A stretch of 64,000 bases of DNA from assembly GCA_021741205.1 (NCBI GenBank), contig JAIOYI010000005.1, positions 124,001-188,000 of the forward strand, read 5' to 3'. A model generated the notes under the pieces. It did not search any database. It was not told the origin of the DNA and worked only from the letters and a program-made list of their open reading frames with translations. The stretch is from Emcibacter sp. (lineage in GTDB: Bacteria > Pseudomonadota > Alphaproteobacteria > Sphingomonadales > Emcibacteraceae). Of this stretch, positions 13,333-64,000 are shown piece after piece. Every line of letters starts with the position of its first letter. The first letter of the stretch is position 1. A program made the translations under genes and the position numbers.

Positions 13333-13426
13333 GAGAGATGCTCTTGGTGTAGGAGTATTTCTTTAGCCCTTCGTGGGCGTTTCCTCCCTAGACTTGGGCC
13401 ACTCTTTACGGGTGGCCTCTTTTTTT
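13333..13426 (+). ncRNA. mmgR: suhB/mmgR-family small RNA (alpha-r8 type)
   Basis: The segment has the hallmarks of the alphaproteobacterial suhB/mmgR sRNA: a small hairpin GCCC-TTCGT-GGGC at 13366-13378, then the unpaired conserved line GTTTCCTCCCTAGACTT at 13379-13395, then a terminator hairpin GGCCAC/GTGGCC with a T tract. The CCTCCC line resembles an anti-Shine-Dalgarno and is the likely target-pairing site. In Sinorhizobium, mmgR limits polyhydroxybutyrate granules; a PHA synthase gene is present at 38565. The 5' end is inferred from the promoter only. Family assignment is from memory of the motif. Confidence 0.75.
13397..13426 (+). terminator. Rho-independent terminator of the sRNA
   Basis: Stem GGCCAC (13397-13402) pairs with GTGGCC (13412-13417) and is followed by TCTTTTTTT. 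It forms the 3' end of the sRNA. The rest of the gap up to trpS (13427-13553) shows nothing further that I can name. Confidence 0.85.
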
Positions 13427-13553
13427 GTGGTCTCTATAATAATTTATCAAACTTCATCAAGCCTTCTTGACCATCTTGAAATTTGAGGTCATAAAACATT
13501 CCCTATAGTAAAACATAATCGGGATATGTCCAAAATATTCCAAAGGAAAAAAC

Positions 13554-60291: not shown

Positions 60292-61554
60292 CTAAGAACC
60301 CTTCTTTGATAAAGATTCTGATTTGATTACTATTTTCTTTATGCGGCCGAAACCATTAAAATCTGTACGGGATACTTCGCCGTATGCGCCTAATTGTTCT
60401 AATCTAATCCAATCACCCACCTGAATATCATCAGGAAGCATGAAGGGTCCCCTCATCATATCCACAGAATCGCATGTGGGGCCTGCGAAACGAAATGGTG
60501 CCATAGAGCCAGAAAAAGGTTTATTTTCCCGACGTATGGGGTGTGCGGGGTAGGCAAGTCCAATAGCGCCGCCCGCTTCGAATAATCCGCCATAGGTACC
60601 ATCATTCAAATAAAGAAGGTCGTTTTTGCGACCCTCGATACGGACAATAAGCGATCCTGCAGAAGCCACAAGTCCACGTCCAATTTCGCACAACAAATCA
60701 AGATGTTCAAGATTATTCTTTTTGATTGATCTGGCTATGGCTTTTGTGAATTTTTGGATAGGGGGTAATTTCTGGTCACTATTGAGATCAGCAGGAAATC
60801 CACCACCAACATCAAGTGCCTCCACGTTCATACCGCTGTCGATCATAATCATTGCCGCATAGTCCACAGCCATTGCATAGATGCTAGGATCGTGGCACTG
60901 GGTTCCTACGTGGAAGCTCAGGCCAAGCTTTTTACAGAGAGGGCGACATTTTTTGAGCAATTCAACGCCTTCGTCATATTTGGCGCCAAATTTACTGGAA
61001 AAATCTGTGGCCACATTGCCACCTGGGTTGTTCTTTGGAATGGCAATGCGGACAAATAATTCAAGATCCTTTGCCCCACCTGTTGCCTGAATTATTTTAT
61101 CCACTTCTCCTGCATAATCCAGTACAAAAGCCCGAACCCCATGTTCCTTATAGGCCTCATAAATAGCTTCGGGGGCCTTGATGGGATGCATGAAATATAA
61201 TTTTGCATCAGGGAATAGTCCCTTCACCAATCGAACTTCGCCGATAGAGGCTACGTCAAAACGTTTTATACCGCCGTGATACATGGCTTCTAGGAATACG
61301 CTGTCTGGGTTGCATTTTACCGCATACATAGGGTGACCTGTGAAAGCCTTGACGAACTTCTGAGTTCTTTTGACAAGCTTTTGAGGTTCCAAAATGCTAA
61401 CGGGTACATTAGGCTTTAATTGCCTAATATAATCATCGTCAATGGCATGAGAAACGCTAATAAATTCAGAAACCGAAGGTAAAGTTTCATTTTGAGAAAA
61501 TGTTAAGGCACTATAAGAAGCCTTTTGGCTCCTTTGGAAAGGATTGTTGAACAT
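60292..61554 (-). CDS. odc: Ornithine/lysine decarboxylase (alanine-racemase fold)
   Basis: PLP enzyme of group IV making putrescine from ornithine, and in some alphaproteobacteria cadaverine from lysine. The PLP lysine is in MYAVKCNPDS, and the glycine loop is GGGFP. The active-site Cys from the partner subunit is in GPTCDSVDMMRG. It has 420 residues from ATG 61554; a TTG one codon earlier is possible and better spaced from AGGG. Diaminopimelate decarboxylase is excluded by the CDSVD motif. The long structured leader indicates control by polyamine level. Confidence 0.92.
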   Translation of the reverse strand: MFNNPFQRSQKASYSALTFSQNETLPSVSEFISVSHAIDDDYIRQLKPNVPVSILEPQKLVKRTQKFVKAFTGHPMYAVKCNPDSVFLEAMYHGGIKRFDVASIGEVRLVKGLFPDAKLYFMHPIKAPEAIYEAYKEHGVRAFVLDYAGEVDKIIQATGGAKDLELFVRIAIPKNNPGGNVATDFSSKFGAKYDEGVELLKKCRPLCKKLGLSFHVGTQCHDPSIYAMAVDYAAMIMIDSGMNVEALDVGGGFPADLNSDQKLPPIQKFTKAIARSIKKNNLEHLDLLCEIGRGLVASAGSLIVRIEGRKNDLLYLNDGTYGGLFEAGGAIGLAYPAHPIRRENKPFSGSMAPFRFAGPTCDSVDMMRGPFMLPDDIQVGDWIRLEQLGAYGEVSRTDFNGFGRIKKIVIKSESLSKKGS

Positions 61555-61559
61555 CAACT

Positions 61560-61640
61560 GTAAACCCTATGCTAAGTGGGATAAGCCCTGGTTAACTACA
61601 AGATAAACGTCGTTGCATAACCATCCAAGGGCCATAGGCA
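61560..61640 (-). ncRNA. speF-type structured leader RNA of odc
   Basis: In the transcript CCUAUG (from 61638) can pair with CAUAGG (61571-61566), and inside it GCCCUUGG (61632-61625) with CCAGGGC (61591-61585), allowing one bulge. This placement and sequence fit the alphaproteobacterial speF motif described upstream of ornithine decarboxylase genes. The closing stem covers part of AGGG, the odc ribosome site. Assignment is from memory of the motif and needs a covariance search. Confidence 0.65.
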
Positions 61641-61686
61641 CGTACGCAAACACCTTATGTAGTAAGAATGATGAATATTCAATCAT
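61567..61686 (-). CDS. Possible 39-residue leader peptide of odc
   Basis: An ATG at 61686, about 20 bases after the predicted transcription start, opens 39 codons that run through the whole speF-like RNA. The stop UAG (61569-61567) overlaps the odc AGGG. The peptide is hydrophobic and begins MIEYSSF; its second half starts at an internal Met (residue 18) followed by ALGWLCNDVYLVV. The Shine-Dalgarno is weak, so a later start (GTG or the internal ATG) is possible. It could act as an arrest or attenuation peptide like E. coli SpeFL. Confidence 0.45.
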   Translation of the reverse strand: MIEYSSFLLHKVFAYVPMALGWLCNDVYLVVNQGLSHLA

Positions 61687-61712
61687 TATATTCATCGTTT
61701 GTTATTATTTTT

Positions 61713-61741
61713 AAAATACTATAAATATTGTTTTATTTCAA
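61713..61741 (-). promoter_or_regulatory. Promoter of the odc operon
   Basis: On the minus strand TTGAAA (61741-61736) and TATTTT (61718-61713) are separated by 17 bases. Transcription would start near 61706 and give a leader of about 150 nt before odc. Confidence 0.6.
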
Positions 61742-61765
61742 CAGGTTAATTATATTTTTTTTGCC

Positions 61766-61799
61766 ATTAAAAAAGCTGTCCCTATTAAAAAAGTTGTCC
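61766..61799. repeat. Tandem 18-bp duplication across the patatin gene stop
   Basis: ATTAAAAAAGCTGTCC at 61766-61781 and ATTAAAAAAGTTGTCC at 61784-61799 differ by one base. The second holds the last codons and stop of the patatin gene, so the first duplicates the end of the gene beyond its stop. Confidence 0.7.
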
Positions 61800-64000
61800 A
61801 ACGAATAGAAATACTGAAGTCTGTCCGCCGTCACCAATGCCTGCGCCCAGATAAATAGGTCCAATCAAACTGTCGGCCCCAACAAAGAGGCTTGAACTCC
61901 AATGCAAGTCATTTAAACTCATATCTTGGCGCCTGTTCCACAAATTACCAGCCTCGATCGTTCCGCCGACAAAAATTGGCATTTGGGCGAGAAATGAACC
62001 ACCGCCTGCTATTTTACGATAATAAACGGCCGCCAATGATCCGCCGTGATTTCCAGTGATTTGTCCCGGACTATAGGCGGTCAGTCTCATAAACCCACCA
62101 AGAGGAACCAATCCGGTTTCATCCAAGGTATCGTTGAAAGCGGTTGTAAAATGATAATTAAAGCCAAGCGTATTATCCCCCCATGACAGAGGCAGAAAAC
62201 CGTTTGATGAAATGGTATCAACACTATTATCACCGTCAAGCCAAGGCAGATTATTGGTATAGAGTGCCTCAAGAAATATTCCTTTATGGGGGAATCTTAC
62301 ATTATCAATCGTATCAATGGTGAAACTCATGGAAAGTGTGGTTTGATCAAAAGCCTTGCTTGAATCTATCGGAAAGCCTATTCGTCCACGGATATCGCCA
62401 AAAGATCGTTGAAGACCAATTCGAGCCGTTGCCCATTGGTCAAAATTTCGGCCAAAGCCCATCTGTACAAGGGCCTGTGAGATGCGCAGTTGAGATAATA
62501 TTGTACCATCATCATCAATGACGTTTCGGTTATATTTTCGTCCCACTGCATTGGCAAAAATATGGTAACGATCCGCAAAATCGATGGGCTGATAAAATTC
62601 TGTAAAAAGTCCAAATTCATCCCCGATTTTAAAGAGCGCCTGCCATTCTCCGCCATAATTATTGAGAGCGAGATTGGTATAGCCAGCGGCCAGTTGGAAA
62701 CCGCTTTCGCCCTCAAAATCTTCTTGTAGGGCAAGGCCGAATCGAATGTGATCCTCGCCATTTTTAGGTTTTTTCACGTTAATGTTAACACCAGTCTGGC
62801 CATTTTCTTTTACAACAGCATAATCAATCTTATCGAATATCTCGAGGCCATATATTGTGGAAAGGTCATGGGACATACGGGTGGTGTCAAGTTTTTGCCC
62901 AGCTTTTATAGACAGGCGAGCCTTGATTATTTCATCAGAGATTTTTGTATTATTGTTGATATGAATAAAGTCGATAACAGGGTTGTTATTTGATTTTGAT
63001 TTTCTGGCGCTTATATAGTCTTGCCATGCCTGATCAGACAGGCTGTATTGGCTTAATTTATGGATATGGTCTTCTGCGGACTGCTTGCCCAGTGGGATGG
63101 TCTCTAGAGTGCGTTCAAAATCGACAAGACCAATATCACCAAGATCCGGGCGGATAAAGATGTCACGCTCCGTCAGGCTTTTTAATTGCTCCACCGAAGC
63201 CTTCTTAGTCATAATCATGATTAATTGATCAATGACATTGGTAAAGGATGATATTTCTTTTTTTGTGAGTAAAGCGGTACTCACATCGACCGCAATAATA
63301 ATGTCTGCCCCCATGGAACGAGCAACATCAATGGGAATATTATTGGCAACACCACCGTCCACAAGCAATTTATCGCTATATTCTATGGGAGGAAATAGGG
63401 CAGGAACCGCCATGCTCGCCACCATAGCAGATACCAGATTTCCCTGATCCAAAACAACAGCCAGTCCAGTTTCAAGATCCGTGGCTACGGCCTTGAACGG
63501 GATTGCGAGATTATCAAAATTATTGCTGCCTGATGAGTTGTTGATTAAATTTAGTAAATATAATCTCAGATTGTTGGTGGTGACAAGGCCTGTGGGTAGC
63601 CTAAGCTTTCCTTCTTTAAGACCAAGTTTAAATTTGATGAGAAAGCCATTGTCGTCTTGTTTTCGTTTAAAGGAACGCTGACTTCTCAGGGTACGGCTTG
63701 AAAGCAAAGTCTGCCAGTTGATGTCTTTGAGGATATCTTTCAATTCGTCCGCAGAATAACCTGAAGCATATAATCCGCCAACAACCGCTCCGAAACTTGT
63801 TCCTGCAATAACGTCGATGGGGATGTGATTTTCTTCAAGAACTTTTAGGATGCCAATATGAGCGCCCCCCCGTGCGCCGCCCCCTGATAAGACAAGGCCA
63901 ATTTTTGGTCTGGGGGATGCGTTGTTATCATCATTATAGGCTTCTGTCTTTTGGCCAGTCAAAAGATATAAAGATAATATGCACATCAAATAAAAACTGA
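61785..64000 (-). CDS. Patatin-like phospholipase with POTRA and beta-barrel (PlpD type), 5' end outside window
   Basis: Type Vd autotransporter-like lipase. The patatin domain has the oxyanion loop LSGGGARGGAHIG, the nucleophile in AGTSFGAVVGG and the Asp in VDGGVANNIPID. A POTRA-like part follows, and then an outer-membrane barrel ending in FLFVGQLF with a terminal Phe. The hydrophobic signal core (CILSLYLLTG) is present. The frame stays open to the window edge and no basic start region is seen, so the true start probably lies beyond 64000. An ATG at 63986 is the first one inside. Confidence 0.88.
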   Translation of the reverse strand, partial: SFYLMCILSLYLLTGQKTEAYNDDNNASPRPKIGLVLSGGGARGGAHIGILKVLEENHIPIDVIAGTSFGAVVGGLYASGYSADELKDILKDINWQTLLSSRTLRSQRSFKRKQDDNGFLIKFKLGLKEGKLRLPTGLVTTNNLRLYLLNLINNSSGSNNFDNLAIPFKAVATDLETGLAVVLDQGNLVSAMVASMAVPALFPPIEYSDKLLVDGGVANNIPIDVARSMGADIIIAVDVSTALLTKKEISSFTNVIDQLIMIMTKKASVEQLKSLTERDIFIRPDLGDIGLVDFERTLETIPLGKQSAEDHIHKLSQYSLSDQAWQDYISARKSKSNNNPVIDFIHINNNTKISDEIIKARLSIKAGQKLDTTRMSHDLSTIYGLEIFDKIDYAVVKENGQTGVNINVKKPKNGEDHIRFGLALQEDFEGESGFQLAAGYTNLALNNYGGEWQALFKIGDEFGLFTEFYQPIDFADRYHIFANAVGRKYNRNVIDDDGTILSQLRISQALVQMGFGRNFDQWATARIGLQRSFGDIRGRIGFPIDSSKAFDQTTLSMSFTIDTIDNVRFPHKGIFLEALYTNNLPWLDGDNSVDTISSNGFLPLSWGDNTLGFNYHFTTAFNDTLDETGLVPLGGFMRLTAYSPGQITGNHGGSLAAVYYRKIAGGGSFLAQMPIFVGGTIEAGNLWNRRQDMSLNDLHWSSSLFVGADSLIGPIYLGAGIGDGGQTSVFLFVGQLF

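Follow-up and report, generated by a model that had tools for sequence, protein, structure and literature searches.

SpeFL, encoded in the speF leader of E. coli and Salmonella, is a translated arrest peptide. The alphaproteobacterial RNA of the same name, a riboswitch candidate since 2005, is still an orphan. As described by Corbino et al. (2005; PMC1273637), the extended speF element is conserved from the transcription start through a stem that carries a large insertion at its top, and then continues as about 80 conserved nucleotides folded into a bulged stem-loop; six metabolites tested in that work with the tumefaciens RNA gave no binding. A 2018 update of the speF model, cited in PMC7266159, found additional conserved parts of speF, and part of the present finding may thus already be known. 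Among the matches listed from open-licence literature, none dealt with a leader peptide within an alphaproteobacterial speF leader or with a speF ligand.

Here we analyse the leader of an ornithine decarboxylase gene (odc) in a 64,000-nt stretch of Emcibacter sp. DNA, called the window throughout. A preliminary description had proposed that a leader peptide, threaded through a speF-like RNA, controls odc. Comparison with related leaders instead suggests an RNA element that hides the odc Shine-Dalgarno (SD) sequence and probably works with no peptide taking part.

The odc gene and its surroundings

The product of odc gives Pfam matches to PF02784 (7e-34) and PF00278 (5.6e-11), and its best solved relatives are lysine/ornithine decarboxylases, for example 5gjm, 2plj and 7odc; matches to NCBIfam were all below cut-off, with lysA first. 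Besides the annotated ATG (Table 1), an in-frame TTG lies at 61557. Relatives were collected by a pattern scan of GTDB species genomes with the window decarboxylase, from which the best 80 of 107 were kept, and the named loci closest to the window odc are mostly alphaproteobacterial MAGs. Like speF, the window leader lies upstream of a COG0019-type odc gene in an alphaproteobacterium.

Three further features of the window were seen in passing. The upstream neighbour of odc, a 734-aa frame at 61785-63989 (-), resembles by eye a patatin-like phospholipase whose C-terminal half is barrel-like. Just within the odc reading frame lies a hairpin, AAGGAGCC/GGCUUCUU at 61515-61534 (-), which is also predicted for L108 at this position and takes other forms in some relatives. 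A suhB/mmgR sRNA (RF00519, 70.7 bits) is found at window position 13359-13433 (+).

Table 1. Coordinates of the odc gene and of observed and predicted leader features in the window.
Feature	Position	Strand	Basis or remark
odc, ornithine decarboxylase-like PLP enzyme, 420 aa	60295..61554	-	ATG 61554; stop codon 60294-60292
odc Shine-Dalgarno sequence AGGG	61565..61568	-	10 nt before ATG; sequence; aligned in relatives
SD-sequestering hairpin, 5' arm 61612-61592, 3' arm 61575-61555	61555..61612	-	covariation, predicted SD burial
P4, GGG/CCC hairpin inside the sequestering hairpin	61578..61588	-	1 of 3 pairs changed on both sides in relatives
Core of conserved 5' element, GUACGUGCC-(20 nt)-GCAACGAC	61609..61645	-	covariance model R1 match
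P2 helix, CGUGC (61642-61638) with GC-A-ACG (61616-61611, one bulged base)	61611..61642	-	RNAalifold, covariation
P3 hairpin AUGGCC/GGUUAU, variable in relatives	61617..61635	-	columns 7-10/10 paired
ORF proposed as leader peptide	61567..61695	-	42 codons; 39 from second ATG 61686; judged not a gene
Inferred promoter, TTGAAT (61682-61677), 17 nt, CATAAG (61659-61654)	61654..61682	-	8/12 matches (4/6 + 4/6)

A conserved 5' element precedes odc

Upstream of odc, the leader carries an element whose pattern, common to relatives in many families, is CGCACGUGCC-(variable)-G(C/U)AACGACG. R1, a covariance model of 66 positions that we built from 25 rows, matches the window at 61592-61657 with 53.6 bits (E 6.3e-14 in the loci set and 3.1e-13 in the genome), the window itself being among the R1 rows. 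The window's genome holds one good copy, its other matches having E values of 0.36 and 2.41. At E <= 0.01, R1 is found in 81 of 385 genomes of the class, with 100 places listed, some of the weak ones likely by chance (e.g. L237; E 0.0023, 31 nt).

The structure of the element was tested by comparison because the window leader, folded as a single sequence, gains no stability over its shuffles (z -0.43). Across nine leaders z ranged from -2.77 (L111) to +0.79, with most relatives not better than shuffles, and single-sequence folding was set aside as mostly uninformative. On A1, an alignment of 25 pattern-chosen sequences, RNAalifold found the P2 helix unprompted, one of its pairs occurring as GC in 11 rows, GU in 11 and AU in 3. 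Among 87 regex matches, the two P2 pairs left free by the pattern (the other three being fixed or always paired by the search itself) read GC 83, AU 1, GU 1, AC 2 and GC 64, GU 18, AU 3, AC 2; all four AC cells come from two matches regarded as chance (L058 and L193). L111 has a double change (CAUGC/GCAAUG), and the bulged base is altered in L106, L108 and L088. Within ten window-type leaders, 100% of P2 cells are paired and one pair shows a double change, 43 of 500 shuffles being as high; here as elsewhere, the shuffle controls retain relatedness and sequence pattern partly guided the choice of members. Across many families the core bases hardly vary, unlike the remaining positions, in rows that were chosen by pattern. 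A match to SCARNA7 (E 0.22) was dismissed as chance or irrelevant, as were matches of L024 and L021 to eukaryotic Rfam families; a search of Rfam with L024 and L026 gave no bacterial match.

The preliminary description was right in calling the leader a speF-type structured RNA that contains the odc ribosome site; the support for this comes from the 5' element common to both, and not from the Rfam model itself. RF00518 gave no match in the window at its gathering threshold, none for 61450-61850 up to E 5 and none over the cut-off (at least 37 bits) in the whole genome, and membership by model was rejected. The link is one of adjacency. RF00518 occurs at E <= 0.001 in 14 genomes, and in 10 of these the RF00518 match is preceded by an R1 match, with a gap of 4-5 nt; the other four keep GCAACGACG, and their 5' strand differs. 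From this adjacency together with the text of Corbino et al. (2005), we take the window core to be, very probably, a homologue of the 5' domain in the alphaproteobacterial extended speF element, joined in the window directly to odc. The 5' domain is missed by the current Rfam speF model: over its cut-off RF00518 reaches 12 of the 385 class genomes, against the 81 reached by R1 at E <= 0.01, under thresholds that are not equivalent.

A hairpin predicted to hide the odc Shine-Dalgarno sequence

Directly after the core, AUCUUGU (61604-61598) can pair with AUAGGGU (61570-61564), which would place the odc SD inside a long hairpin. On A2, an alignment of ten window-type leaders, 85.0% of the cells of this hairpin are paired, against 81.0% for shuffles, of which 2 in 500 do as well. 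Six of its pairs show double changes, where shuffles have 3.1 on average and 12 in 500 have as many; sliding the pairing lowers the paired fraction to 40-50%. Pairs were counted on A2 only, L117 having been left out for its long insertion and a larger alignment of 52 SD hairpins (A3) being too divergent for counting.

Folding predictions agree with the comparison. The probability that the window SD is unpaired is 0.01, against 0.34 with shuffled upstream sequence, and 0.18 when the RNA is folded from the inferred transcription start. Across 67 leaders the mean is 0.073, against 0.394 with shuffled upstream sequence, and the native value is the lower one in 64 of the 67. These 67 were drawn from the 87 regex matches by removing L058, L193, 12 further loci (L060-L062, L064-L068, L070 and L072, which are of RF00518 type, and L103 and L113) and five lacking a start with an SD (L047, L092, L114, L211 and the chance match of L108), and by merging one duplicate.

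The preliminary description had placed the SD in a different pairing, an outer stem CCUAUG/CAUAGG. The complementarity is there (61638-61633 with 61571-61566); covariation is not. In the window-type rows 78.3% of its cells are paired, 385 of 500 shuffles are as high and no pair shows a double change, and the comparison supports a pairing other than this one.

What would free the SD may differ between leader types. In longer leaders a further helix, P1 (GACGC/GCGUC), precedes the core, and none of 2,000 permutations of flanks paired as well as the leaders' own flanks (63 distinct flanks). In the wider family the 3' strand of P1 also serves as the 5' strand at the base of the SD hairpin, a geometry usual for expression platforms. 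For the window type, with ten flanks, 1,475 of 2,000 permutations were as good as own pairing; the test as a whole covered 84 members with 73 distinct flanks, with L058, L193 and one of two matches in L108 excluded as chance. We considered P1 as the switch in the window, where the best duplex (AAGGUG/UAUCUU) reaches -7.7 kcal/mol, yet own pairing was no better than cross pairing, and we rejected it. This outcome fits a transcript that begins at the element in leaders of the window type. A clean mutual exclusion of P2 and the SD hairpin was also rejected, the two having only two bases in common in the window. With P2 forced in ten leaders, the SD opened noticeably only in L109 (0.54) and L112 (0.22); the window SD stayed buried, so that P2 alone would not be the switch. 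In aggregate, hiding of the odc ribosome site is supported by these sequence comparisons, and a state that frees it is suggested through P1 in the long leader types and not in the window type.

The leader reading frame and the likely transcription start

The open reading frame noted in the preliminary description is present, and its stop does fall on the odc ribosome site, TAG (61569-61567) overlapping the SD. Its length is mildly unusual: 110 of 2,000 first-order Markov shuffles of the 206-nt leader (5.5%) hold an ATG ORF of at least 39 aa. Conservation of the start and of the stop position did not bear out. We read ten RNA-keeping relatives in the ORF frame, setting aside L106, L108 and L111, whose core letters differ. 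None of the ten has an ATG at either of the window's places, and eight have no ATG, GTG or TTG before a stop upstream of the element; L112 (TTG) and L120 (ATG) start at other places than the window. Stops are scattered from 25 to 211 nt from the element, and among the ten the window's 76 nt is matched only by L117. The preliminary description had itself named leaders that keep the RNA and lose frame or start as the observation that would speak against the peptide, and such leaders are what the relatives contain.

The most similar leaders (L104, L105 and L107) have the frame open through the element as in the window, with the start gone. The inner stretch VPMALGWLCNDVYLVVN is similar in these three, where the RNA is alike and equal in length as well. 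Over 51 nt, the four closest leaders differ at 3 to 7 positions per pair, with 9, 5 and 14 differences at codon positions 1, 2 and 3 over the six pairs, numbers too small to tell a coding frame from a non-coding one. When 32 genomes of the family were searched by tblastn with the ORF peptide, the window was the single convincing match (E 0.105 for the next best), and the peptide matches nothing in Pfam or NCBIfam. By eye, neither ATG is preceded by an evident SD.

The position of the promoter bears on the same question. Promoter-like sites exist in the leader, as had been claimed; three were found where 2.0 were expected. The promoter we infer is weak on its own score, but correctly placed. 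Its -10 element matches at only 4/6 positions; it lies at -14 from the RNA element, the same distance as in relatives, and L107 has an identical -10. A -10 match of at least 5/6 starting at -18 to -12 from the element occurs in 11 of 18 leaders (window included), compared with 1-3 of 18 in five control stretches. Transcription is expected to start at about 61646-61648, at the RNA element and about 40-50 nt below both ATGs. Of two higher-scoring sites, TTAAAA-18-TATAAT (10/12) has its -10 at 61690-61685, overlapping the ATG at 61686, and would exclude both ATGs from the mRNA; TTGAAA-17-TATTTT at 61741-61713 (9/12) would include both, with no SD for either ATG seen by eye downstream of it.

An unconserved start, ATGs lying above the inferred transcription start and the lack of an SD together suggest that the peptide is not conserved and is probably not made. 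On the unconserved start and stop, the missing tblastn homologue and the position of the ATGs, we rejected a leader peptide in the window. Going by start conservation and the inferred transcript, the window has no conserved translated upstream ORF within its transcript of the kind expected for a SpeFL-like arrest peptide. Control of odc by a ribosome stalled on the peptide, the mechanism originally proposed, loses its support with these results.

The element recurs before polyamine genes

We examined gene contexts at 68 of the 100 listed R1 places, made up of the 30 best loci and 40 hand-picked ones, two of them repeats. Polyamine genes lie downstream of the element at 61 of the 68: odc directly at 55, an hss-odc operon at five and speD-speE at one. 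In the hss-odc operons (L225, L226, L232, L257 and L258) homospermidine synthase comes first and odc follows; hss was identified by phmmer against homospermidine synthase structures for L226 and by tblastn to the L226 hss for the others. The speD-speE pair (AdoMet decarboxylase and spermidine synthase) is at L229:300-2062. The remaining seven places comprise L209/L233, with an amidotransferase, L211, L224, L227 and L235, which run off their contigs, and L231 and L237, which have no clear gene. At L209/L233 the gene that immediately follows the element encodes a class I glutamine amidotransferase (PF00117), for which a link to glutamylated polyamine turnover is our guess.

This distribution ties the element to polyamine synthesis and favours a signal from the polyamine pathway. 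The contexts (odc, hss-odc and speDE) narrow down where that signal lies, to polyamine metabolism, and suggest homospermidine: it is missing from the metabolites tested in 2005, going by the list in the text of PMC1273637, and it comes first among the candidates since hss-odc operons, too, begin with the element.

Short reading frames in related leaders

Among the 67 leaders with a buried SD, 44 drive a frame of fewer than 80 codons and 23 a long one, which is odc in most cases and in the window; in this split L087 is counted by an out-of-frame ATG, and the long frame of L209 is the amidotransferase. The short upstream ORFs (uORFs) come after the SD hairpin, where odc itself starts in the window. 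In family f7 a uORF is found in five of seven genomes, and four of these uORFs, compared in six pairs, have pS of 0.48-0.66 against pN of 0.18-0.28, so that at least these look like selected peptides. Outside f7 the selection signal is weaker or absent: pS 0.35 and pN 0.20 for L039/L040, two synonymous changes only for L019/L020, and pS 0.14 and pN 0.13 for L081/L085.

Strong-SD uORFs follow the element in L033, L034, L035 and L037 (f7), L039 and L040 (f5) and L023/L036 (f8). Their C-termini read ..VLDxHSP.. or similar (VLDKHSP, for example, in f7), and we regard them as candidate arrest peptides. None of six leader peptides tried against NCBIfam, the window ORF among them, gave a match. The earlier suggestion of undescribed peptides in speF-type leaders therefore does not apply to the window, and is worth following in other genomes and at this other place in the leader.

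Other recurring C-termini of uORFs after the element are [LI][FI]GR[EK]NPLSS, SSMRAPD and FYLQLQH (respectively in L187, L188, L189 and L197; L199, L201 and L204; L077 and L092). In L080, L082 and L083, GGGGGCUGAGACACCCCCCUGAA stands right after a 9-aa leader ORF; its letters are reminiscent of a thiamine box.

Discussion

The odc leader of the window is probably a structured RNA, homologous to the speF 5' domain, that controls translation with no peptide involved. Transcription of the odc mRNA would start at the 5' element; P2 and P3 would form the conserved core, with the long SD-hiding hairpin directly after it; and pairing of AUCUUGU with AUAGGGU, which the comparison supports, would keep the odc SD hidden. 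The core very probably senses a polyamine-pathway signal, which would alter access to the SD, and no leader peptide would take part. Whether the sensing is direct is a separate matter, and we give binding of a metabolite by the RNA itself roughly an even chance.

A 39-codon peptide translated through the RNA, whose ribosome stalls or terminates on the SD and so controls odc, would explain the overlap of stop and SD and the likeness of the VPMALGWLCNDVYLVVN stretch among the closest leaders. A promoter-like site would put its ATGs on the mRNA, and leader ORFs are known for odc elsewhere, as in the odc1 motif (PMC8632094). Against it stand the ten relatives, which have no ATG at the window's places and mostly no start at all, the stop distance shared with a single leader, the ATGs above the inferred transcription start with no evident SD, a length that 5.5% of shuffles reach and the absence of a tblastn relative among the 32 family genomes. 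We hold this reading to be very improbable. A hairpin acting as a constitutive translation brake or in a thermometer-like way, with no dedicated sensor and with P2 and P3 only as a 5' stabiliser, is unlikely in a lesser degree: the window SD is buried with or without P2, and no ligand is known (Corbino et al. 2005; PMC1273637). Yet near-invariance of the core over many families while the rest varies (in pattern-chosen rows), and its place before polyamine genes at 61 of 68 sites, fit sensing better.

Within the peptide-free, speF-type control that we prefer, the core could instead be a site at which a protein or sRNA that regulates polyamine genes binds, and not a metabolite aptamer. A short conserved core with a bulged base, placed before odc, hss-odc and speDE, would suit such a site, as would the failure of the six metabolites of 2005 to bind (PMC1273637); we see this as a minority prospect. 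Speculatively, and with a similarly modest chance of being right, the 5' element may be a sensor in its own right that can stand apart from the RF00518 domain and responds to a polyamine outside the 2005 list (homospermidine first), with its SD hairpin plugged either into odc directly, as in the window with its leader of about 95 nt, or into short ORFs encoding stalling peptides with conserved C-termini. The window leader is of practical use as a minimal natural version of speF, short enough to be produced as a single RNA and placed before a reporter.

Comparison with known leader systems

The spermidine riboswitch (PMC10853860) is likewise an RNA control in polyamine metabolism. It is described as a variant of a SAM aptamer, and a word search of that paper for speF, ornithine decarboxylase and alphaproteobacteria gave no hit.

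The odc1 motif (uORF-25-1; PMC8632094) is likewise an alphaproteobacterial odc leader with its SD in a stem and a riboswitch candidate; it differs in having UUG starts, an 11-aa uORF and a sequence unlike that of the window element. Among our loci, the Sphingomonadaceae-like odc leaders of family f6 (L043-L059) have the form GCUGCCCC..GGGAC.UCC..GGCAGC..GGUCCCUUG. By eye, the f6 leaders of this order look like the published odc1 motif. The window leader does not show the f6 sequence CUGCCCCAUGGGACUUCC with adjacent UUG starts, and an 18-base piece of f6 has no match in L015 with up to 3 mismatches.

The speF leader of E. coli and Salmonella also controls an ornithine decarboxylase gene; the window differs from it in having no conserved peptide. 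The closest likeness remains that to the alphaproteobacterial extended speF element. Its 5' part, judged from the text of PMC1273637, is matched by the R1 element of the window; the 3' domain of about 80 nt goes undetected there by RF00518, and a shorter SD hairpin occupies the analogous position. The 14 RF00518 loci stand before a different odc subgroup, at 32-36% identity to the odc of L018, and, unlike RF00518-type speF, the window hairpin carries the SD of odc itself.
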